A stretch of 64,000 nt of DNA, from NCBI GenBank assembly GCA_903813345.2, contig CAIIXF020000001.1, positions 11,197,598-11,261,597 on the forward strand. The letters are read 5' to 3'. Within the stretch, counting starts at the first letter, position 1. Every line of letters starts with the position of its first letter. A program made the translations under genes and the position numbers. A model generated the notes under the pieces. It made no database searches. It worked only from the letters and a program-made list of their open reading frames with translations, and was not told the DNA's origin. This stretch comes from Owenia fusiformis (lineage: Eukaryota > Annelida > Polychaeta > Sabellida > Oweniidae). Of the stretch, positions 1 to 56,300 are shown in pieces.

Positions 1-905
1 CTGGTTGGTGCATTCTTAGTCAAATTTGTTCTTGTAGATGTCTTCTTTCATTTACGATATAAAAAAATGTATAGTGGATGACCAATGTTCATAGTAGAGC
101 TTTCAGATCTCCCCTACCCCATTCATTAGGAAAAATGACCGGAAACTATTAAAAAAAGTAAAATAACTTCAAATTATGAACTTTTACAAAGTTGTACCTA
201 TTCTATGTCAATACTTTGTATTATTTAATCTTTTTCTGATGTTTCAGGACCCTCATTAGTATTCTAATGCCTAGAAATGTGATATTTAAGGACAAAACTT
301 TTTTTCATTTTCGCTTTCAGCAATAACGTTTAGGTCCCTTTATATTGAGTTTTATGCTGACTGGTTGGTGCATTCTTGGTCAGATCTGTTCTTGTACATG
401 TCTTCTTCCATTTAGGATATAAAAATGTATATTGGAAAACCAATGTTGATATAAAGCTTTCATGTCTCCCCTGCCCCATTTATAATGTAAATGAAAAAGT
501 AATTTCAAATCATAAACTTTAACAAAATTGTAGCTATTCTCTATCAATACTATGTATTATTTAATGTAACCTTCATTTGATTACATGTGTCTAAAATTTG
601 TCATTTTTAGCATTCTGCATTTAGCAGTAGCATATAATTTTCCACAATTATAATTCTTTGATGATAGATTCATATATGTTTTCTATTGAATCTGTCTTCT
701 TTGATTTAAGTTAAAGAAAATGTATGTAAGACAAACAATGTTTTTATTAGAGGTCTAAGATCTGCCCTCCACCATTTAATAAGAAAACCGACACAAATGT
801 TATTATTGCATGTTAATATTCTTAAACTTTTCAAAAGTTTAGCACATTTATTAGCACACTAAAATCAAAAAATGACACATAAATGGGCAAAATGACAAAC
901 TTTTC
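1..905 (-). repeat. Tandem array of ~360 bp unit, left arm
   Basis: The sequence at 1 restarts at 361 with the same opening (CTGGTTGGTGCATTCTTRGT) and the same internal block ending in CTCCCCTACCCCATT. Two further, more diverged units follow to about 905. The array runs off the left edge of the window. The same unit recurs in opposite orientation at 2440-4035, so the two arrays form a large inverted repeat. Nothing in the unit looks coding. Confidence 0.85.
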
Positions 906-2439
906 ACTTTCAGTATTAGTTGTTTATATTTTTAGTTCAATGGTGATTGTTGATATATTTTAGATCATATATATTCAATTATTTGTCTTGTTATCTTCAA
1001 AGCATGGAAAATGTGTTTTAAACACAAATATACATATTAGGGATAAAATTACTACACTACCATATTTTTAAAAGATTACTCAAAAATAGAATAGTGCGAA
1101 ATAATTTTGTACCTTCAGTTTACCCTCATATGAATCAAAGGATATGTCTATATATAAACATGATTGTTCACAACTCTCGAACTTAATCTAGCAACAGCCT
1201 GATTTTTCAAATCTCCCTGGTTCTATGTTAGAGCTGCATTTAAGTCATCTTAAAGGTCTAAGTTGCTCATGACACCACAAGCTATATATTCAGATATGTA
1301 AGATCTCTAAATAATTGTTATAGTTCTGAGAAACTCATCCTAAAATATTGTCCAACGATGTGCACTATGTTGTTTATTGCCACATGGACAAGTAGCAATA
1401 CACCCTTGACTAGAAACTTTGTATTTGCAATTTTCTCTGCCTTATGCCATTTTACATTTGCGAATTGCCAAGGACATATGATTTTTGTGTTGCTACGAAG
1501 GTTTGTTTGTGAGTACTGGTACAAGACACCCATCTTTGATATATCTTCAAATAGGTATTGCACTTTGAGATTCATATAGTAGGACATAAGAAACTTTAAG
1601 AGCTCTTTTTAACTCTCATCCTTCTTTGCAAGCAACATTCTGTATCATCAGACTGAATACAAATTCTCTCAACAATGAATTCCTTTGTCTTGTCTGCAGC
1701 ACTGTAATAGACATGGGCCATAAGGAGAGTGTCAACTTCTTCATTTCACAATGATTGCATTTACCAAAATATCCCCAAGCCCAATCCATCATGAACTTCC
1801 TAATAACACCACCCTTAGGTGTAATATGGAAATCACCAAGCCTTTAACATTGCAATTGATATGAGGGAATCACTCAGATGCGAGTAGGTAGTTACCAGTT
1901 TCGCCACCAGGTGGCTGATTCGGGGGAAATAACATGGCAGGGTATTACAAAATTCCCTTAAACTTGAATATGCATCAGTTTTAGTGGTTCACTTTTCAAA
2001 TTACCCTTATGTATGTGATAGTTATACAAATTAAAATAAGTCCAGTAAAAGAAAATATTATCTGCCCAACACAAGAAAAGATATTTCATTTTTTGTAGTT
2101 TTACAACATGGGGTCTATGGGGAATCTCCCCGACCTAGAAGTCACATTTTCAAAGTTGATCAACTCTTTTCAAAACCACACTTTTAGATGTAATTTTATA
2201 TGTAGATTCCAAATTTGACACCAGTTTGATTGAATTGTGATTTTTTTTAATGATGTAAATCAAGATTATTTCTACTCGCATCAAGGATATTCAACCAATA
2301 TGGCTTGATCACTGGTTATGATTATCACACTACTATACCCCATTACATTTAAATATATTCCAAGTGTTCTACTATACATTGCATAGATTCATGAGCAGTT
2401 TGCAATGTATTATTACCAGAAAGCCCAAATAGACAAAGA
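906..2439. other. Unassigned core between inverted arrays
   Basis: About 1.5 kb of AT-rich sequence between the two opposed arrays. The only longer reading frame is on the minus strand at 1318-1587 (89 codons, with the stretch CPWQFANVKWHKAEK). I do not recognise it, it shows no clear splice sites, and it may be a remnant of whatever the arrays once flanked or simply chance. No promoter or RNA gene was seen. Confidence 0.4.
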
Positions 2440-4035
2440 TAGAGAATACCCGCCCCATTTGCAACTCAACTTTAAATGTCTAATTTTTAGACTTGTATAC
2501 TCATGAAGTTCCTGAAACATCTGAAAATATCAAATAATACATAGTATTGATCTAGAATAGCAACAACTTTGTTAAAGTCTATACTTTGAAATTATTTGGT
2601 TTTTATATTTCTGGTTATTTTTTCAAAATGGGGTAGGGGAGATATGTAAGCTCTCATATAATGTCAGGCTGTCCTCACATGTTTAAATACCTTAAATCAA
2701 AGAAGGCAGGCAAAAGAACAGATTTGTTCAAGAACCATCAACCAATCAGCATAAAACTCAAGATAAAAGGAAATACAGTAATGTTATTGCTAAACGTGGA
2801 AATGATGAAAAATTGATGAAAAATGCCAAATTTTGTTCTTAAATGTCTAATTTCTAGACACAAAGTATATTAATGAAGGTCCTGAAACATTAATTATACC
2901 ATTCAATAACACATATGGAATGGCTACATCTTTGTTAAAGTTTATACTGGTAATTTGAAGTTATTTTTTATATTTTCCGGTAATCTTCCCTATTAAATGG
3001 GGTAGGGGAGATCTGAAAGCTCTAATATGAACATTGTTTGTCCACTATGCATTATCAATACCTTAAATGGAAGAAGACATGTACAAGAACAGATTTAATC
3101 AAAAATGCATCAACCAGTCAGCATAAAACTCAAGATATGAGGATCTATATGTTACTGCTGAAAGCAGCATTGATTAAAAAATGCCAAGTTTTGTCCTTAA
3201 ATGTCTCATTTCTAGTCACTTGAATACCAATAAAGGTTTTTAAAAATCTTAAAAACATTAAATAACACATAATGTTGATATAGAACAGCTACAACTTGAT
3301 TAAAGTTTACAATTTCAAGTTATTTTACATTTTCATATTTCTCGTTTATTTTCCATAATAGATGGGGTAGGGGATATCTGAAAGCTCTAATATGAACATT
3401 GTTTGTCTACTATACATTTTCTATATCTTAAATGGAAGAAGACATGCACAAGAACAGATTTGATTGAAAATGAAACAATCAGACAGCATAAAACTCAAGA
3501 TATGAGGAACTATATATTACTGCTGAAAGCGAAAATGATAAAACAAAATGCAAAGTTTTGTCCTTAAATGTCTCATTTCTAGCCACTTGTATACCGAGAA
3601 AGGTTCTGAAATATCTTAAAAACATTAAATAACACATAATATTGATATAGAATAGCTACAACTTTGTTAAAGTTTATGATGTCAAGTTATTTATTTTTTT
3701 TAATTTTTGGGTAATTTTTCATAATAAATGGGGTAGGGGAGATCTGAATGCTCTCATATGAACATTGTTTGTCTACTATACATTTTCTATACCTTAAATG
3801 GAAGAACACATGTACAAGCACAGATTTAATCAAAAATGCAACAACCAGTCAGCATTAAACTCAAGATATAAGGAACTATATGTTAATGCTGAAAGCGAAA
3901 ATGATTAAAAAATGCCAAATTTTGTCCTTAAATGTCACATTTCTAGACACAAGTACACTAATGAAGGTCCTGAAACATCTGAGAAAGCTTAAATAACACA
4001 TAATATTGATATAGAATAGCTACAACTTTGTTGAG
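2440..4035 (+). repeat. Tandem array of ~360 bp unit, right arm
   Basis: At least four and a half head-to-tail units. Landmarks such as GGGGTAGGGGAGATCTGAA and CCTTAAATGGAAGAAGACAT recur about every 360 bp (for example near 2998, 3362 and 3728). This is the reverse complement of the unit at 1-905. The innermost unit, near 2450-2800, is the most diverged and the outer units are most alike, mirroring the left array. Non-coding. Confidence 0.87.
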
Positions 4036-8828: not shown

Positions 8829-9315
8829 TCAATTAAGCTTTATGTTGCCATTAACAAGTTTCCATCCATGATTCTCAGGATTGGGTATATCTGATTTATT
8901 GAAGTGTGCATTCTTCCGGATAGACGCTTGATGGTTAACATGTTTCACATGTTGAATGAGGGGGTCTTTACTTGGTGGCAATGGGGAAAGATCAAAATCA
9001 TGTGTTTTGTTCACTTGGGTCTCTGTTAATTCCAAAGAATTTCTGAAGGTCGTAAATAGATTCTTGAATATGCTCCCACTTCTGATGATTCGCAGAGCCT
9101 GGAGCTTCCCCCTCCAACAAAAGCACTTGTTGAGTCCCAGTCTGTAAAAGCATTGCATGATGGAAGTGCCGGACACAGTTTAGATCCTCCTTGCTTGTTC
9201 CTACATCAATCAATATCAGTTGTTTGAACCGAGTACAAACAAGAACACTTCTGTATCTACAGAAAGCAATACTTACTCGAGTCTCTAGCCAATACTTGGC
9301 TAGAGGGGATTTCAT
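8829..9315 (-). pseudogene. Remnant of widespread mobile-element ORF family
   Basis: Minus-strand open frames here contain PLPPSKDPLIQHVKHVNHQ and IPNPENHGWKLVNG. From memory, these resemble the C-terminal half of a large uncharacterised animal protein family typically reading LPPTxxALxxHVKRAxYQ then PxPxxHGW, spread by mobile DNA in cnidarians, molluscs, ticks and fishes. It is fragmentary and without an intact start. A more distant set of relatives is at 50368-51817 and 53800-54930. It abuts the palindrome beginning at 9272. Function unknown. Confidence 0.55.
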
Positions 9316-9954
9316 CTGAAATACTGTGAACTCTATTTGAAAAAAGCTGGCCGTGGTGTCATAAATTTATTGATTATTTTAAAAATCGCCAGATAAATAA
9401 ATCATTAATCAAAACCGGACCCAGGTCGGCTCCTTGATGAGATATGACATGATTTTATCAGGATTTCGTCTAAAATTAAAACAAAATGCCTCCAAGAAAA
9501 ATGGCGATGTTCGAAAACTGGACGAAATGTCGTTAACGTCTGACATTAGAAACTGGCTGTAAGTTAGCGATCCAGAAGATGTGAACTAATACACTGATCA
9601 CTTTATGTGTGTTTTGGAATTTTTGGTGAGGTCGAATAAGACCAAAACTCGCAATTCAAATTGTGATGTGGAAAAATGGCGGACATATGATTTCAAATTT
9701 TATGATTACGACATGACCAGTTGTTCATGCAGGAATATATCTGTACTGGAAGGCCACGATACAGTGGCCTTAGACGAAGGTAACGCAATACGATATCTGT
9801 TGTTTTTAGAATTCATTAAGAAGTGTTTCCAGTCTTTGTATTTAGCTGTAATAGTTGCAGGACCCTTTAAAACAATTGGATCTGATATTCTCCTTCTTTG
9901 TCTCTCTTTTTTCCTCTATTGATATTTTGTTCTAAGAGTCTGGTATAAAATATA

Positions 9955-11395: not shown

Positions 11396-11755
11396 TTGAT
11401 AAATATTATTGATTTATAGGATCATTATGAAAACTTTTCAGTGTTTAAATGTTAAAATATACACATTGATACAATTTTTGACAAAGTAGCAGCCATAAAA
11501 TCCAAACAGATTTGCAAATATTTCACTTTGAGATCAAAGGGACACATTTGGGAGGGGGTCAAATTGAGAATATTTCAAGATATAAATACTATTTCTATGG
11601 TAACCATATCAGTTAGAGATTGGAAATTTCTGGCACTTACTAACCAAAACACACATAAAGTGATCAGTGTATTAGTTCACATCTGGATTGCTAACTTAGA
11701 ATTAACAGCCAGTTACTAATGTCAGACGTTAACGACATTTCGTCCAGTTTTCGAA

Positions 11756-11895
11756 CATCGCCATTTTTCTTGGAGCCATTTTGTTTTAATTTTAGACGAA
11801 ATCCTGATGAAATCATGTCATATCTCATCGCCATTTTTCTTGGAGCCATTTAGTTTTAATTTTAGACGAAATCCTGATGAAATCATGTCATATCT
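11756..11895 (+). repeat. 70 bp tandem duplication in palindrome arm
   Basis: CATCGCCATTTTTCTTGGAG begins at 11756 and again at 11826, and both copies run to the same ATGTCATATCTCATC. The left arm of the same palindrome has one copy, so the duplication arose after the arms formed. Confidence 0.9.
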
Positions 11896-12064
11896 CATCA
11901 AGGAGCCGAGCGGGGTCCGTTTTGATTAATGATTTATTTATCTGGCGATTTTTAATAAATATTCAATAAATTTATGACACCACGGCCAGCTTTTTTCAAA
12001 TGGAGTTCACAGTATTCCAGATGAAATCCCCTCTAGCCAAGTATTGGCTAGAGACTCGAGTAAG

Positions 12065-21589: not shown

Positions 21590-22180
21590 TTTTCGGGAGA
21601 TTTAAAAAAAATTGCGGTACTTTTACGGGAGTTTTTTTCAAAATCCAGTTTTTGCGGGAGTTTTTTGAAAAAAAGCGGGAGTTTTTACGGGAGATTTTTG
21701 AAAAAACGGTAGTTTTTACGGGAGATTTAAAAAAAAACAGGAGTTTTTGCAGTAAATTTTGAAAAAAACGGGAGTTTCTACGGGAGATTTTGAAAAAACG
21801 TGAGTTTTTGCGGGAGATTTTGAAAAAAGGTATTTTTCGCGGTAAAATTAAAAAAACGTGAGTTTTTTACGGAAGATTTCAGAAAAACTGGAGTTTTTGC
21901 GGTAGGTTCTGAAAAAACTGGAGTTTTTGCGGTAGGTTCTGAAAAAACGGGAGTTTTTACGGTAGGTTTTTTTAAAAAACGGGAGTTTTTACGGTAGATT
22001 TTTTTAAAAAACGGGAGTTTTTACGGTAGATTTCTGGAAAACGGGAGTTTTTACGGTAGATTCTGAAAAACGGGAGCTTTTACGGTAGATTTCTGAAAAA
22101 ACTGGAGTTTTTACGGTAGATTACTGAAAAAACGTGAGTTTTACAGTAGATTTTGAAAAAACGGTCCCGTTTTTACGGTA
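21590..22180 (+). repeat. Minisatellite, ~30 bp ACGGGAGTTTTTACGG units
   Basis: Roughly twenty degenerate units of the form CGGGAGTTTTTACGGTAGAT plus a short A-rich stretch, immediately inside the left end of the element at 21564. A related array (TTTTACGGGAGTTATACCA) occupies 22600-22895 by the right end. Confidence 0.87.
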
Positions 22181-35362: not shown

Positions 35363-38300
35363 CTGAAAAAGTACACACATGATTTCATTTAGTTAAATCA
35401 AATCACATTTAAAGGAAAGCTTTGCCACAAGGCATTAACATGACAAAATGTCACCACCTAGTTGCTCCTTGAGAAGGTCAATGAAGGTCAAATCTCAAAT
35501 CTAAAGTCAGATTCTAACTTCTGATAACTTGTAGATGATTGTAAAAAAAGATTTGGTCAATTTGAAGCAAGTTGAAAAAAAAACTTTTTGACATTTTTTA
35601 CCTTGAAAAGGTCACCAAAGGTCAAATCTTACATATAAAGTCAGATTTGAACTTCTGAAAACTTGTAGATAATTTTGAAAAAAACTGAAGTCAGTCTAAA
35701 CAGTATTTGGTGGTGACATAAAAAAAGTTTTTGAGGATGCTGATTCTAATATCTTATACATACTACTTGCTACTAAGTGGACCAGGATTTCAGAGAGAAA
35801 ATCAGATCTAGCAAGAAAGTTAACAAAAAAATTGTTTCAATTTTAGAATATTTTTTGGCTCATATCATTCCTTAACATGTCTATTATATTTCTATAATTA
35901 TGGTTACCATTTTTATTACTTGGGAGAATTTAAACATTTTTCCCCAATTTTTGCACTTTAAATCCATAATAACTTCACCAATTTAAAACATATCATGGAC
36001 TAAAGAGTTATGGTATTTGAGATTGTAAGGAACAGATTTGCATGTCAATTGTACACTTTGATTAAATAAACAAGATAGCAATAAATATTGCACTTTGAAG
36101 AGTGAAATGATCGCCATGTAATTTAACCAGCATGCCCAAATATCTTATCAGATCTTGGCACTAATCTACTCTTGCAGCTGTAAATATGAGGTTCAACGAC
36201 TTTAACCCATCTGATGAGATAAATGAGAATCTCTAGGCTACATTTAGTTAATTGGTCTCTGTAAATGAATGAGGAGACTATTTACAAGTTTTGGAACTAG
36301 CTGGAGGAATATTTAGTTTTCATCTACATAGGCTCAACAGTACTCCTTCGACTAAACCCTTGGGGGAGGGGGAGGTAAATCTTTTACAAATGCAAAGAAC
36401 AGTAATCTGGATAAAGTGAACACTGCCAAAAAGTACTCAGCTAGCCAAAAAAGTGTTCACTACAAGTTAGTATTCACTTAAGATTTTCATGAAATGTTGT
36501 CTTAAGCCCTCAATTCAATACACAGCAATGTGCTCTAATTGACTCTGTTTGTTTAATTTGTCATCGTAAATTCACTGAGTTTGTTATCCCTAAGTCAATG
36601 TTTGCTTCACTAATGATACATCAATCAACATTTTTGAGGAAGAAGTCTGTGAATCTACTCTGAAATACATTATGAGTCTTGTAATTAACCTTATTATATA
36701 GAAACAAAAGGATGATACCATGCCAAATAATCCAATCTTAAACTGGGGATTGACGAATGATGAAATGAAGGAGCAAAACAATTCTGGGATGATAAATGAG
36801 TCAAATGACCTAACTAGAAAAACAGCAGTGCCTCAGAGTAGCAAATCCCACCAAATAAAACATATTTTCACAAATCACTCATTGATGAACATTTCATGAT
36901 AACTAGGCTGTAATATTGTCTCCTTTTGCCAAAATCAGTCTATGACCTGACATGACGACCATATTATTACAAATTCTTTCTTCACCCAAGAGGCCCTGTG
37001 ATCATAATGTATTAACCTATGAAATTTGTAGCAAAAGTGATAGTCTAACCTGTATTTACATAATCAGAAATTCTGAAAAAATGAAGTCATTTTGAGTTTG
37101 GCAGACATCTTGAAAATGCCATATTGAGTCCAATGCCCAAATTCAGCAAAAGCAGAGGGCTTTTGTCTCAAGGCATCAGCATACAAAATTCGAACCAAAT
37201 CTGTCGACTACTATTGTATTGTATTGCAATGGCGTAGCGTCATATACGCATAAAACGCCATGGCGTACTCTCAAAATTTATAAAACAGCTGATTTTTTAT
37301 ATTGATTTGCCCAACACTTCAAAAATGGATAAAAATGGCTAATAATTTACATTCTATTCGTCCATAATAGTCGGAATTTCGTATTTCAAACGCCCCAGAA
37401 CGCTTCAAATGCAATCTCATTTTCAAATTTTCGTTGGGGGGACCTCACCCGAACCCCCCTCACAGCACGTCTATTTCGCTTACTCGTGGCGTACCCTCAC
37501 AAAATACCCACGCTACGCCACTGTATTGTATTGTATTTTTACAAAATATGGTGGCCATTTTAAATTGAGTGGCTATATTTAAAATGGTAATCAGAGTTGC
37601 ATATTACATCTACTACCAATCAACTAGTCATTTGCTCCATTCATTTGTTTGTCAGTTCTTCTGTCTTCCCAGCAATAATCAAATACTAAATGACAGATTT
37701 AGTTCTAATTTTGTAAGGCAAAATTCCTAAGACAACTCATCCCAATACAACTCATCCTAAGAGAACTCATCCCAATACAACTTATCCTAAGACAACCCAA
37801 CCCAAGACAACTCATCCTAAGAGAACTCATCCCAAGACAACTCATCCTAAGACAACCCAACCCAAGACAACTCATTCCTAAGAGAACTCATCCCAAGACA
37901 ACTCATCCTAAGACAACCCAACCCAAGACAACTCATTCCTAAGAGAACTCATCCCAAGACAACTCAACCCAAGACATCTCATTCCTAAGACAACTCATCC
38001 TAAGACAACTCAACCCAAGACAACTCATTCCTAAGACAACTTATCCCAAGACATCTCATTCCTAAGACAACTCATCCCACTTCACTACTTGTATAATTGA
38101 TGATTGATTTTGTCCTCTATATTATAGATCCCTTTTTCATTTTTACTATTACAAAGTGGTATTTGATTATACACTCAATTTTTGATATTGATTTTTAGTA
38201 TTTTGAAATGGATTGAACTTGAAAGTTATGTTTAAGTATTTTTATTATCACACCATCGGTGGGATACAGTCGTCATAGTCATCGTGATCGTGAGTGTCCA

Positions 38301-47300: not shown

Positions 47301-50300
47301 CACGGCAACCATAGGATTGTAGTGTAAACCAAAACAAAACATTTAGGCATTATGACGTTATGGGCCACGTGGGGACCAGTGAGAGATCACGTGGGGGCCA
47401 ATAACGTCACAACCAATTCGAATATTGCTTATTAAGCAGCTATAACGATCGTTAGAGTGAAATAGTTTTCGCACTACTGATGAGAAAACATGTCCAAATA
47501 CATTTATCAAAAAATTATATTGATTCCTGTAGGTTAAAAATACCATTTCATATCTGCTTTAAGTGTTTACCTTGCCTGTAAGTATTTCACAACTGTAAAT
47601 GGAGGGTACTCACCATAGTTTTTGAACATTGCATCAAGGCAAACAAGAGTGCTTAGTTTCAGGGCTCGTTGATTCTTCCTCAAGAATGATGCCAGAATGG
47701 GCATTCCCTCAGGCTACAAAGTATGTAACACATTATTATGTTCAGTCTAAATCAATAAACCAAGTATAGCTAGTTTTTGCAGTAAAGTGGCTAAGCAAGG
47801 GTTTTCTTTTTTATGTATTCAAAATATAATTTATCACTATATCATATCATTTAACACGTATGTACTATTAAGCACATGTTTCAGTTAGCCTATACAAAAA
47901 ATATGATCACTCAAAATATTCAACGGTATTGGACCACAGGTTCTATTAGAATCAGAGAACACTGAACTGTTCAACTTACCAACATAGGTCTGAGGTCTAT
48001 TTTTAAAGGAGAACCTGAAATCAAAGTGAGAGACTTGACAGTGGTCAACCTGGTGATCTCATTCCTTAGTCTTTCCAAGAAGATAGGAAGGCAGTTCTGT
48101 AGCTCCTGCTGTAAACTGTCTCCAAGGTTACATATGATCTGGCCCCTGAAAGTAAATTGTACAACATAAAAGTTTGCCAATAAGTTTGTATTGTAAAACT
48201 TGAATATCAAAACACATCTCTAATCTGAACACCTTTCAATGTGAACAATGTTTCAGACAGTCCTTAACCTTAAAATGTGAACCCCTATTAATCGGAACAC
48301 TTTTGGCCAGTCGAAGTGGCATTCAGATTAGACAGGTTAAACTGTACTCATAATCTGAATGAGGCACCTTCCTAGTTATTCACTGAGGAAAACGTATATA
48401 TATGAACCTAATTAGTAATTACTAATATGCATTCAATCAAGTTATTTCACTTTTATCAGATGTGAAATATGTATCAAAGGTTACCATGCTATATCCCATG
48501 AGAAGGAATATGACTTACATGCAAGAAATGGCCCTCTCTTTGACCTCCTGGTCTATATCTGCAGCTTTAAGTCTGCTCAATGTGGCTGTGTAGATCTCCT
48601 TTACATAGGGTGCAAAACTGAATGCAGTTGGCTGCTCTGAAAGTTCATAAACACGTCTCCTGAATCCGTGTTTTAAATGAAAAGTTGATGAATTTAAAAT
48701 GTCTATATTGAAAGGTTGAAAATTAAAATTTTTATGTTCCTAGCCATAAGTTACACTTTTAATTTTCAAATTGTAAAAATTATTATCTTGCCAAATTCAT
48801 TAAGTGATGAGCATAATACATGAATGTTTATTTTACTGAAGACAAGCTAAAAGCATGCACATTTCCACTGACAATAAAATATACATTTTGTGACTTAATA
48901 TTAGATAATACATTTTCAAGATCGTTCACAGAACTCAATCTTACCTAGTGGTCTAATGACCTTGACCATCTGCTGGGTGACCAACAAGGCCTCTGATGTG
49001 ATTTTGTAGAATGGGTCTCCAATGGCTGCTATAACAGGCTACAATAACAACATTATATAACTCTGTATTACAGTATATTTTAGTGTATAATCAATATATG
49101 TTTTTAAAATAAAAATATTTTATCAAAATCATCATCGATTGTCAACATCAAACAATTACTTTTCTAAGTCTTTTATCGAGAAAAGGAAAAGGCCGTCATT
49201 AAAACTAGCATTTCATATACAAAAAATAATAAATGTTGGCGTAAAGGCAAACAATGAAATAACCCAGCGGGTCTTGTGAGGTTATGTGAATATCTATAAA
49301 AATGAAATAGAAAATCACATACTGGCAACAGGACAGGAACATGTGGGTGGAACACAACTGGATTGTGATGAAGAAGTACACAGTTCAGAAATGACAATGT
49401 GTCTATCTTCATATTAGAACTGGAATTTTTTTCTCTGAAAAATAAACATACTGAAATGTGACATTTTGTCTTATCGTAACCATGTTCAATCAGTGATTAA
49501 ATCAACACAAAAGTAAATAAAAGTTAGGTTTGTTTTCAAGGAATCAAGCAAAGTTAATTATGTAAATTAGTAATATTGAGAAAGTTTCAAATCTGATATC
49601 CATTTATATAACAGGAGTAACTGAGGATGAGTAACTGGCTATTTGTTCACAATGGTGAGAGATTTTTAGTATAATTGTTGAAAATGAAATTAAAAGAATC
49701 TGATAACTCAAAAATCCATTATTTTGTCAAAAAAATACTATTAATTGGTTCCTTTGATTTATTTCCTAATTGATTCTACTTCTGTGTTTAAACACAAAGT
49801 ATGGAAGTCCAAAAAAAGTGTGTGAATTAGGCAGGATGCTTACCCCAAAGAAAACTGTATACCAGGTACCAGGGCTGGGATGTGGTCATTCAAGGCCCCT
49901 GGCAGGACCAACACCAACTCTGTCAGTAAACTGAAGCACCCCTGTCTTGTCTTAATACTCTTCTCTTTGAGTTGTTTATGTATGGCTTTAATAATACTAG
50001 GAATCTGGATTTGAAGCAGCACAACTGGCCTGAAGAAAATTTGGGGTAAAACATTAGAGATGCAATCAATCTACGTCTTATTCTTCCAAATTATGTTTCT
50101 GAAAGTAGACTTAAAAATACCAAATTTAGACCATCTAGATTTGATGAATAGTCAGGAATATTTAGGTGAAAATATTTCAAAAATATATAGAAGCAATTTT
50201 AAGGTGGATTTCAAAACTTCATACCATTCTTTTGAAAACCTGAAGTGGCACCAGGCAGTCCATTGATTTTTTCACCGAAAATCCCAGATGGCCGCCGCGA

Positions 50301-53300
50301 TGTATGAAAAAATTATAAAAAATGACTAAACGTTATGATTTAATAAGTCTAAATAGTTGTATACTGATTAAACATTACTAATAATAGTACCTATCAGAAG
50401 CTCATATCCATTTAAAGTCATTGGATCATTTTTGTGTGAAAACTGGAGTCCCACAAGGCTCAACTTTATGTCCTCTACTTTCTTTCCATTTTTTGCATTG
50501 ACCATGGCATTTGCACATAGCAATGCATAGAAATCCATTTTTGTAACATGTGCACCTAGGACCACATTTCACCTTGCACCCACACTTGACCAATGCTTCA
50601 CATGCTGCTTGAGGAAGGGCTGTATATAGTGGCACCAGGAGGGACATGTCATACTACCAGCCCCATGTTGTGAACTCCGATACCTATGTTGGATTGAGAT
50701 TATACAGTTGGCCCCAAACAATACCACCTTGGTTAGCAAGTTCTTAAAATTTTCTGTGCAAGGGCTCCTTTTGTTGGTGGCATTCTATCAATGACTGTAT
50801 TGCCATCACAGAACATTTGCCTTCGCGCTGCATCGATATCTATCTGGTTGCTGGTTCGATCATATACTAGAACAGTAAAATGTTTCAGGGACTGAATGGC
50901 ATGAACTGACAAAGTCAGGTTTGTTGTAACCATTTGTGCTACTTGTAGAAAAGCTCTGAGTAACTTCCTTGAACACATTTCATAGTTTGAAGGGCAGATT
51001 CTTTGCTATGGCCAAAGAATGGTGCAGTTATATGATATAATTTAATACCTGTAATTTTTGAGAGGTAAGAAGGCAATCCAGATTGACACTTATTGTACCC
51101 TAATGCTGCAGCCATGGCAAGAACAACTACACCAGTATCTCCACTGATTCTGATTATGAAGTCTTTTTAACCCTCTGAGGTCATCTGTTTTACCTGAACA
51201 AAGAGTCTAGTGTAGTATCAGCTTCTTCATGAGTACAAGGTTCAATCATTACTGTAACTGGCAACTGAGGAAAGCACTTCAACAGATTCCACAATAGTCA
51301 TAAACATCAACCCAAAAATAGAGTTGGCCAGGAATGCTAACAGCTCAGTCTTGTTCTGGTTGTTTCTTAGAAAGCTTAACCGATTCTGGAGCATCACATT
51401 CTCTGCATAAATCATCCATTGCCACAATGAGTCCTTGTCAGGGACTTCCTACTGTTTTATAGGTAGACATCCCAGATAACATCTTATCTTGAAACACCTT
51501 CCATAGGCCACCTTAACTTGGGATGAGACATTGGTACCATATTCTTGGAAGCTGGTAGCCACACCAGGATGCATCACATGGACCAGAAGGATGCCATCTA
51601 TTAAAATTGCATCTGCAGATGGCTTTTCCAATACTTCAGATCCATCTGGCTTAGCTTCTTGACATTTAAGTAAGTCTGCTTTTGTTGTAGGTCTCGTGGC
51701 TCCGTGGTTATGTAGTGATGGTGGGAACTCATGGTTTTCATATTTGAAAAACTCAGACATATCATTGTGTCTTGATTGGCATGCAATGTAGAGTAATAGC
51801 AAAAAGGTCATAATCATTTCTCAGATCCTTGACTTCAGGATTCACTTGCATGCATAGTTGGTGTGGTCTAGGGAGAAAAAACAAAGAATCATCTGCAGTG
51901 ATTCCTGAGGTCAAGGAACTGAGAGAAGAAAATTACCTTTTTGCTAAGCTCTATATTGCTTGCCTTTGACAATCAAGACAAACCAGAACAACGGCAACGC
52001 CAAAGCGTAGCGAATCCCATCGAACAGAAATGGCTGGCATTTTTACAAACGAATAGCAAATATCATAAAACAACACACCAGAAAGGCCACCATTTTCAAA
52101 ATGGTTGCTCACTAGCCAAGTTGTCATCAGAAGAAATAATATGCTTTTAAGTAGCCACCTCTAAAATTTTTGAAAAATCTCACACGTACTTGTAAAATTA
52201 CACACATAAAAATGGTGGCCATTTTTCAAAATGGCCAACTACTCCCCAAAGTTTTATTAGACAATGTGCCATGCTTAAAGTATTCACATATCAAATATGA
52301 ACAAAATCGCTCCACTACTTTTCAAGTTATAGTAAAATATGTTAAAATGGCAGCCATTTTTCAAAATGGCCACCGTCTACCAAAAGTGTCATTAGAAATA
52401 GACAGTGTGCCATGCTTATAGTATTCACATACCAAATATGAACAAAATCACTCCACTACTTTTCGCGTTATAGTAAAATACGTTAAAATGGCGGCCATTT
52501 TTCAAATTTTTTTTCAAAATGGCCGCCTTCTACCAAAAGTGTCATAGGACAGTGTGCCATGCTTATAGTATTCACATACCAAATATGAACAAAATCGCTC
52601 CACTACTTTTCGAGTTATAGTAAAATACGTTAAAATGGCGGCCATTTTGAAAAATGGCCGCCTTCTACCAAAAGTGTTTTTAGACAGTGTGCAATGCTTA
52701 TAGTATTCACATACCAAATATGAACAAAATCGCTCCACTATTTTTTGAGTTATAGCAAAAATCGTAAAATGACGAGTAAAGGCCGCCATTTTTCAAGATG
52801 GCTGCCATGTGCTTCTTTAATATCTACATTTGTAGCATTATTAATGTCCTTTATAATTTTTTTACATTTAAAACATTGCTATTACAGTTTTACATATTAC
52901 ACCTAAATTACTGTAAAATCGGCACTAAAATGGCCGCCATTTTGAAATGAGTGGCCATTTTGAAAATCGGCTTTCGAGCAGAACTTCTACCCCCATAGGG
53001 TATATGTGTACAAAATATGAACAAAATTGGGCCAACGGTATTTGAGTTATTGCCCGGACGGACGGACGTACTTACGTACGGACGGACGTACGTACAGACG
53101 GACGGACGTACGTACGGACGGACGGACGGACGGAGGCGTTCCCTATATCCCTCCGAACTTCGTTCGATGGGATAATAACAGGTCTGAGTTTTTCAAACCT
53201 GAAAAGCATGAGTTCCCGTCATCCCTAGCTAAGCATGGAGCTTGAGACCTACAACTAAATGACTTACTTACTGTAGATTGGGTTAATTTGGCGCCCGCTT

Positions 53301-56300
53301 TAATTTGGCGAAATTGAAAAATTCGCCAATATAAATCTCCGCCAAAATTTAGAATGAATCCCCGGGAATCATCTAGGGTATTTCGTCCAGTGTATTAAGG
53401 TCACTTCCGGTTTATTTTTCCAAAAATATGAAAAAATGTCTCTCATAAATTGGCTCAGAACTGGTCAGTCACTCATTTATACTCAGGGAAAAGTAGCAGC
53501 ATCGATTGAGGTGTAAAATGTAAAGGATGATCTCACAAAAATGTACAAACGTGGTGAATATCGCCAGTGGTCCTCAAAAGAAAAAATGAACATAGCCAAA
53601 CATGCCCATTTAGATCTAGATCTACATGGTAATTCGCAAACAGCGCGTAAGTTTAACATTCCATTAACATTTTTTTGCATATCCGCCAAATTAAATAGCC
53701 GCCAATATGCCAAAAATGGCAAAATCGCCAAATTAAGTAGCGCCAAATTAACCCAATCTACAGTACTTAAATGCCTAGAAACTAAGCCAGATGGGCCAAA
53801 GTATTGAAAAAGCCAACTGCAGATGCAGTTTTAATAGACTGCTCCTTTCTGGTCCTTTCTGGTGTTTCATCCCAAGTTAAGGCAGCTAATGGAAGGTGTT
53901 CAAAGATTAGATGTTGTCTGGAATGTTTACATACAAAACAGTGATAAGTCCCTAACAAGGATTTATTGTGGCACTGGTGCTAGAAGGATGATTTATGCAG
54001 AGATGCACAAATGCCAAAGAATTGGCCAGCCTTTCTAACAAATTTTCTTAAATTGCCAGATATAGCAATGATTGAACCTTGTACTCATGAAAAAGCTGAC
54101 ACTAGGCTCTTTGTTCATATAAAACAGATGACCTCAGAGGGTAAAAAATACTTCATAATCAGAAGTGGAGATACTGATGTCCTTTTTCTTGCCATAGCTG
54201 CAGGATTAGGGCGCAATATGTGTCAATCCAGATTGCCTTCGGACCTCTCAAAAATTACAGGTATTAAATTATATTATATAACTGCACCATTCTTTGACCA
54301 TAGCAAAGAATCTGCCCTTCAATCTATGGAATGTGTTCAAGGAAGTTACTCCAGCTTTTCTACAAGTGGCACAAATGGTTACAACAAACTTGATTTGTCA
54401 GATCAAGCCATTCAGTCCCTGGAACATTTTACTTTTTATTATTATATGATCAAACCAGCAACCAGATAGATATCAATGCAGTACGAAGGCTAATGTTCTG
54501 TAACAGTCATACAGTCATTGACAAATACCACCAACAAAAGGAGCCCTTGCACAGAAAATCTTAACTTGCTAACCAAGGCAGTATAGTTTAGTGCCATAAC
54601 TAAAATGGTTATTGAGTTCACAACATGTGGCTGGCAGTATGACATGTCCCTCCTGATCCCACTATGTACATCCCTTCCTCAAGCAGCTAAGGCATGCCAA
54701 GCATTGGTCAAGTGTGGGTGCAAGGTGAAATGTGGTCCTAGGTGCACATGTTACAAAAGTGGATTTCTATACATTGCAATGTACAAATCCCATGGTCAAT
54801 GAAAGTCATTTGACTAAAAAAGTAGGGGACATAAAGTTGAGCCTTGTGGGACTCCAGTTTTCACACAAAAATAATCTAGTGACTTTAAATGCATATGACC
54901 ATCGAATAGGTACTATTATTAGTCATGTTTGATCAGTATTTAACTATTTCGACAAATTAAATGATGATATTAGTCAATTTTAGTGATTTGCCGATACATT
55001 GTGGCGGCCATATTGGATTTTTGGTGAAACAGTCAATGGATTGCTTGGTGCCACTTCAGGTTCTCAAAAGGATGGTATGAAGTTTTGAAATCCACCTACA
55101 GATTGCTTCTATATATTTTTGAAATATTCTGTGAACTTATCTCCTATTCAAACCCGACTAAAATGTGTATGTATGGATAATATTTGAACATTTCAATCCC
55201 TCCCTCCCCCATAGAATATGCCTGGTCAAAGCTTTAAACCCAAGATGCCCACCCCTACATATACTGAAAGCTTTTTTCTTACTGAGTTTAAAAAACTTAT
55301 TCTACCTTCATTTGCAATTTACATTTACCTACATTTTCATTTACCCACATTTAAAACAAGGCATTAACATGCAAAATGTCACCACCTACCATTTGCTACA
55401 GATACCAAATGCCGAAACACCATCCGCCAAATGCCATCCACAAAAAGACTGAAATTATAACAATATGTCACCACTTCGGGTGGTGACATAAAAATCCATA
55501 AACATTTTCAAGTCAGTGCAAATTCGCTTTCAACTGAAAGCAGCTGTAAGGCATATTTACCCCTCTTCCTGCTCCATGGCATCAGGGTCAGAAGACACAG
55601 TGGGTTTAGTCTGTCTTAGAAGAGTAATATAAGCATGGAATATATCTGCCTTCACATTCTCCTCGCGCTCTGAAAATACAGGGTAATGTAGTATAACATA
55701 ACAAGGCATTAACATGAAAAATGTCACCACCTGCCATTTGTAACAGATGTCGAACATCAAACGCCAAATGCTGAACACCATCCACAAAAAAGTAGGAGAC
55801 TGAAACAGTGTGGCGGTGGTGACATAATAACTTTTAGAGTGCCATTGTTCCAGTACATGGTCTTAATTCCTTTATTCCCTCAATGAACATTTGCTCTCAT
55901 ATTATTTTATTTTGCAGTAAACATGTTTCATACCTTTGAATCTCGACACAAGTGCAGGTGATACAGTCTTATAGAGCTCCTGCAACATCTCATGTCTTGT
56001 CCCCATGATAGCATCCAAACACTTGGCTGAGGACCTCCTCACCTTCCAGCTCATGTCATCATCATCACTGTACTCATCATCAGACTCTCTATAATTAACA
56101 CATAAAATATGGCATATGATTTCCACATATTAGTTGGCAAAAATCATCAGACTCTCTATAATTAACACATAAAATATGGCATATAATTTCCAATATTAGT
56201 TGGCATAAATCATCAGGCTCTGTAATTAACACATAAATATGGCATTAACCTTCATCTCTCTATGACTACTATGTAGAATGTGGCAAAAATCTACCACACA

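Follow-up and report, generated by a model that had tools for sequence, protein, structure and literature searches.

The stretch analysed here (the window) comprises 64,000 nucleotides of the Owenia fusiformis assembly (498 Mb, 525 contigs), C1:11197598-11261597, and holds a large palindrome whose two arms carry relics of one gene. A sequence-only reading had placed this unit at 50165..55130, had taken a satellite for its centre and had proposed that the gene and its inverted partner move together. The palindrome proved real with ends at 50149 and 55160, and we consider it probable, at about 0.8, that 50149-55160 is a non-autonomous foldback DNA transposon moving as one unit.

Layout of the palindrome and its nested insertions

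The inverted-repeat search revealed inverted arms between 50171 and 55128, in pieces and with 81-95% complementarity, and open stretches of one gene were found on each side of the palindrome, read outward. Both results bear out the arrangement of relics first described. The whole element, including two nested insertions, spans 50149..55160, and its sharp ends are common to 20 fetched loci (L009-L028) and to 48 paired-end elements (see below). All end sequences read stop sharply at TAGTCAGG on the left or at TAGTCRGG on the right, with different DNA outside; the element ends are fixed as TAGTC...GACTA. The left tip (50149..50174, + strand) begins with TAGTCAGG, while the right tip (55132..55160) reads TAGTCRGG... 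on the - strand. Flank comparison places the target duplication of this copy at 50146..50148 (GAA, + strand) and 55161..55163 (AAA, + strand), the two sides agreeing in 2 of 3 bases. TA was at first taken for the target duplication, a view since replaced by the 3-bp duplication outside TAGTC...GACTA.

The left arm (50149..51846, - strand) consists of the terminus and an outward-reading relic of the gene's C-terminal half, as indicated by the inverted-repeat search and by tblastn (residues 491-952 at 51793-50495). The palindrome axis is a 50-bp spacer at 51847..51896, flanked on both sides by the gene sequence that forms inverted pair I12. The right arm lies on the + strand in three pieces. The first, its inner end, at 51897..51980, was delimited by the inverted-repeat search and by comparison with other copies; the second, 53175..53270, directly adjoins 51980 in canonical copies; and the third, 53764..55160, contains the outward gene relic (tblastn residues 578-945) and then the terminus. 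It lacks, at 54041-54044, about 106 bp that other copies have. The relic in both arms reaches to about 360 bp from the termini.

Two insertions foreign to the element interrupt the right arm. The first (51981..53174) is a mobile repeat made of ~140-bp tandem units with AAAATGGCSGCCATTTT cores and a CGGA/CGTA tract, and the second (53271..53763, inverted pair I17) resembles a miniature inverted-repeat transposable element (MITE) with terminal repeats TACTGTAGATTGGGTTAATTTGGCGC. Neither is present at the corresponding place in the 20 other loci: 51980 joins ~53175 within ~10 bp in 18 of these copies, L024 and L027 keeping a gap of less than 80 bp, and the junction letters were read across the insertion site in four canonical copies. 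Because the satellite is absent from the 20 other loci and a free copy with matching ends lies outside the transposon at L017:356-1398, it represents an insertion nested within the right arm. The satellite is thereby ruled out as part of the unit and as its centre, the true axis being the spacer at ~51847-51896; the proposed search for further arm/satellite/arm copies with target duplications returned the arm/arm layout and 3-bp duplications, with the satellite missing. The satellite element was also observed at L013:6927-7153, without clear target duplication. In carrying a satellite it recalls the Helentron-type elements of oyster (PMC7492417). The second insert is ~490 bp long, with 26-bp terminal repeats and an ambiguous duplication.

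Paired ends, target duplications and gene relics in the genome

Searching the genome at the DNA level for 253 bases of the right arm yielded 98 candidates, and many of the best 40, which were scored, lie in nearby opposite-strand pairs; in the 20 fetched loci the left and right arms recur in the same layout. The two tips were then sought over the whole genome with at most 3 mismatches, the patterns read backwards serving as control. The genome holds 50 left and 51 right ends, compared with 0 for both backwards controls. These ends form 48 opposite-facing pairs of 1,346-6,412 bp (median 3,409 bp), two left and three right ends being unpaired. An exact 3-bp target duplication was found in 17 of the 19 sources with both outer flanks read, against 12 of 380 in cross-element flank comparisons. 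L022, whose left end lies outside the fetched stretch, was left out of this count, and L024, which is cut, is not scorable for duplication yet its row counts in the 12/380 control. Since the 3-bp duplications surround the paired ends, the whole palindrome has transposed as a unit, and the suggestion that the gene and its inverted partner move as one foldback unit gains its support from the 48 pairs. A diverged element with ends L060 and L061 has TTT on both flanks. Taken together, the long arms, the fixed ends with constant duplications and the lack of a working transposase place the family among the foldback (long terminal inverted repeat) transposons.

The 3,411-bp element L014 aligns with itself in reverse over 23-3379. 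The derivative at C5:32103864-32105209 retains both ends within 1,346 bp and marks a step towards a MITE; in a subfamily of five loci (L010, L011, L023, L025 and L026) part of the left arm is additionally duplicated.

Outward-facing gene relics on both strands are present in 46 of the 48 paired elements. The search with the 161-residue right-arm frame alone gave 43, the rise to 46 coming from 17 hand-picked rows of the C-terminal search; the two elements without two-strand relics look internally deleted. With the 161-residue frame, 153 matches were announced in the genome, and 150 of 337 candidates were scored and analysed. Of these, 122 fall within the paired elements and 28 outside. Only seven of the outside matches have at least 54% identity, five in two further head-to-head pairs on C6 and two representing an unpaired copy at C1:25.45 Mb; identity stays below 54% in the remaining 21, most of which are single genes elsewhere. 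The gene standing without inverted arms had been named as evidence for a chance pair, and for the close relatives in this set that outcome did not materialise, this one unpaired copy being all that was encountered. The gene does exist without inverted arms in the form of longer, diverged single genes (41-53% identity in the core), and these appear to represent the family's autonomous branch.

One such single gene, L059, has an intact open frame of 955 codons. The element arms match only the C-terminal half of its product, beginning near residue 486 and continuing to the end, and no match starting before residue 450 was found in the 26 sequences searched with the 955-residue frame (rows were reported for seven named sources and, otherwise, for any match beginning before that residue). 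Both arms share a loss in the core, frames are broken and stops are common. The stretch of the intact relative that bears TGCD is missing from both window arms, and the pattern TG[CSW]D has no such site in 23 element copies, the two TGSD matches (window copy and L028) lying elsewhere. Because the arms hold only the C-terminal half and lack the TGCD stretch, the palindrome was probably built from a damaged copy. The element codes for no working protein and presumably depends on a transposase made elsewhere. In L059, TAGTC/GACTA was found only inside the gene stretch (598, 1402, 2782 and 2809), the ends of that gene not being seen. Relatives of the 955-residue gene form a large repeated family in the genome (1,796 first-look candidates, of which the best 48 were scored). 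Open frames of 1,602 and 1,573 residues, with 32% identity to the 955-residue protein, were observed at C8:34915240 and C1:49629323.

Elsewhere in the window, a distant remnant beside another palindrome had been cited as strengthening the link between gene and foldback structure. A weak but real relative does lie at 8844-9053 (- strand); its link to the adjoining palindrome is not established. Its translation, PPSKDPLIQHVKHVNHQ...IPNPENHGW, can be aligned with residues 829-899 of the intact relative; E is 2.9e-5 when 751 bp are searched without composition correction and only 0.014 in the 26-sequence search. In a neighbouring frame, LPSCNAFTDWDSTSAF lies at 9113-9166. The remnant is a decayed member of another branch of the gene family. 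The inverted pairs beside it, 9272-9617 / 11644-12064, overlap it only at the edge; they are mostly 93-100% complementary, ~2-2.6 kb apart, and probably belong to another long-repeat transposon. Tandem arrays with periods of ~365, 30 and 15 bp occupy 2472-4032, 21590-22180 and 37725-38079, respectively.

Superfamily, origin of the palindrome and alternative readings

The helper transposase may tentatively be read as AcademX, an assignment to which we would give somewhat less than even odds. AcademX elements are described with 3- or 4-bp duplications and a nuclease (PMC10045372). The 3-bp duplications of the present element fit this description and are not exclusive to AcademX, and the intact relative combines a long N-terminal half with a C-terminal half bearing acidic motifs, whereas no curated Academ or XPG profile matched the gene. 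The 9- or 10-bp duplications of the helicase-bearing AcademH were not found, the element making 3 bp. The motifs EEADTR, TVDTDVVVL and TGCDTTSGFHGRSKK of the intact relative are ones that we take, by eye, to resemble the acidic and helical motifs of FEN1/XPG, a lead that the searches left unconfirmed. DUF6589 matches eight places in the genome, and its link with Academ itself is unproven. Five of these matches (C11:14708020, C3:26995943, C5:17848263, C11:19954101 and C1:55249787) lie within frames of 1,952-2,641 residues, possibly large transposases. Other searches were negative. Solved structures compared by sequence gave no useful match to the gene (the best being HflX, E 0.017) or to the C-terminal-half profile, NCBIfam gave none to the 955-residue frame, and Pfam, run on eight window fragments, gave only two chance-level matches. 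The Tesmin/TSO1 CXC match (TCR) in the tail of the 955-residue frame was at chance level (8.2 bits, E 4.3, cut-off 23.5), and no relatives of the gene were found in viral and other genome contig collections. A fully palindromic Academ derivative with half a gene per arm was not found in the literature searched, most subscription papers and Repbase lying outside it.

The main competing view of the helper, a serious possibility that falls short of probable, is that the unit belongs to a different superfamily that duplicates 3 bp (Harbinger, Zator or an unnamed one) and only picked up a gene fragment, the transposase then being unrelated to the relic. Harbinger-type elements (PMC2213677) and Zator (PMC10045372) also duplicate 3 bp, an intact relative bearing these ends did not turn up, and no profile ties the relic to Academ. 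On the other hand, the approach of the relic to within ~360 bp of the termini in both arms is like the end of the element's own gene, and the relatives of that gene form a large repeated family.

The history of the palindrome was examined through its axis and its arms. A 201-bp probe of the left inner arm and spacer gave 72 rows, 33 of which include the main part, and 31 of these 33 have an opposite-strand partner within 12 bp. Those without one are an isolated fragment at C1:25.45 Mb and an element that carries an insert at C9:15.45 Mb. When the outer 1.2 kb was compared in 20 elements (L022 left out), the median difference was 5.1% among left arms (0.3-9.8) and 4.4% among right arms (0.0-29.2), while left and right arms differed by 11.3% within an element (7.1-16.8) and by 11.5% across elements (7.1-33.6). 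Because arms within an element differ by 11.3%, against 4-5% between elements, the founder palindrome is older than the spread and the arms were not equalised. It is therefore very improbable that the inverted arms were re-made repeatedly or homogenised by gene conversion with no single founder palindrome: several subfamilies with different inner parts and the five loci in which part of the left arm is additionally duplicated would suit such remaking, but arms within an element are no closer than across elements, the axis is fixed and the two tips stay distinct.

We infer instead that the transposon originated a single time, from a previously damaged autonomous element. The 3' half would have been copied in reverse over the 5' half by snap-back synthesis or template switching, and the product would later have spread as one unit through a trans-supplied transposase able to recognise the ends. 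The supplier, a weaker step in this proposal, would be a member of an AcademX-like superfamily with a transposase and an additional nuclease. An assignment of the left and right tips to the parent's 5' and 3' tips, respectively, was dropped, as the two align fairly well with a 10-base gap; by this alignment both may derive from the same parental end.

Two further explanations find even less room. That the arms encode a working nuclease-like protein, the palindrome being kept for carrying two genes, is suggested by the EADTR and DTDV motifs and the open stretches of up to 224 residues that the relics keep; it is highly improbable given that the N-terminal half is absent from every arm seen, that stops are common, and that the TGCD stretch is missing in the window arms, with no such site for the pattern in the 23 copies. 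A chance facing of two independent insertions, or a local segmental inversion that duplicated one copy, would be compatible with the window alone, where the arms differ by 15%, and can be dismissed in view of the 48 paired-end elements sharing their ends, the common axis in 31 of 33 matches, the target duplications lying outside the pair rather than around each arm, and the differing flanks of the genomic copies, which also speak against a segmental duplication family.

Several observations weigh against the transposon reading or its parts. The duplication of the window copy is imperfect (GAA/AAA), and at L013 the 3-bp duplication fails. The longest pairing of a left with a right end spans 6,412 bp; an autonomous element with these ends was not found, and the full-length genes are diverged from the element relics. 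In an older subfamily six short probe matches lack an abutting partner and the axis was not seen; its centre may differ. The snap-back origin is a conjecture that fits. As to the superfamily, the DUF6589 match in the N-terminal half of the 955-residue frame is sub-threshold (17.4 and 18.7 bits, cut-off 27; E 0.0019 and 0.00075). Helicase_C, sought as a sign of AcademH, has no match beside the eight DUF6589 places, and DUF6589 could therefore not be tied to AcademH. The PIN/XPG identity first proposed for the gene receives no support either from the searches of solved structures or from the XPG_I profile, which matches 10 places over the genome, none in this gene family. Both structure models are of low confidence, with a predicted local distance difference test (pLDDT) of 40.9 and a predicted template modelling score (pTM) of 0.27 for the C-terminal half (16-row alignment) and 38.0 and 0.22, respectively, for residues 56-412 of the 955-residue frame modelled alone.

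Tandem dimers, related elements and significance

Eight of the 48 paired elements form four tandem dimers, at C1:52.59, C10:22.96, C10:28.37 and C12:31.61 Mb. In the three sequenced dimers (L009, L011 and L024) the right end passes into the left end as CCCGAC-TA-GTCAGG, the two sharing one TA without an intervening 3-bp repeat; the fourth is known only by its coordinates and an end with 3 mismatches, and a few bases seem lost at its joint. The copies in the sequenced dimers differ at 1/3,418, 1/3,772 and 0/3,717 positions (99.97%, 99.97% and 100% identity), whereas other elements differ by ~5%. Two dimers with both flanks read have a single target duplication around the whole dimer (CCT and CAT). 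The joints are known here from the assembly, not from reads, and their exactness at the element ends speaks against assembly error. Integration of a dimer or circle-based replication like that of IS30 would leave such dimers, and on this ground a eukaryotic DDD/E-type transposon might be able to pass through an end-to-end joined intermediate, a reading that we regard as unlikely. Joining of cut ends on sister chromatids would fit the dimers too. The long palindromic arms together with a nuclease-bearing transposase might favour the joined-end route. For IS30, a bacterial copy-out paste-in element, abutted inverted ends in tandem dimers are described (PMC9333248), which resemble the GAC-TA-GTC junctions of L009, L011 and L024; in the present element, unlike that bacterial one, only integrated dimers were seen and no intermediate.

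Other known elements share single features with the family. Galileo, a foldback-like member of the P superfamily in Drosophila, has dynamic long terminal repeats into which the end of an open reading frame was recruited in reverse, and transposase-less copies of two repeats only are described (PMC4168063). The likeness lies in the long terminal repeats and in the recruited coding end; the differences are that Galileo recruited 69 bp compared with the ~1.4 kb coding relic here, and that it makes 7- or 8-bp duplications and has repeats of variable size, in contrast to the fixed axis of the present element (PMC4168063). Tetris, a foldback transposon of Drosophila virilis, is likewise linked with a satellite and is reported as its source, whereas the satellite in our window is an unrelated nested insertion (PMC4079207). 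KolobokP, also eukaryotic, is comparable in its composite-like architecture and in forming multimers, and differs in having terminal direct repeats rather than inverted arms (PMC9587614). Foldback elements with long repeats are thus already known; what is distinctive here is a near-complete palindrome with half a gene per arm, fixed in about fifty copies.

An odd inverted gene pair has in this way become a defined transposon family with exact ends, a duplication length, an axis and about fifty copies, and a large near-complete palindrome with half a gene in each arm can evidently spread repeatedly in an animal genome. The exact end-to-end dimer joints provide a testable clue to the movement of a poorly studied transposon group. 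If the dimers do stem from a joined-end intermediate, a route of bacterial insertion sequences would extend to eukaryotic DDD/E elements.

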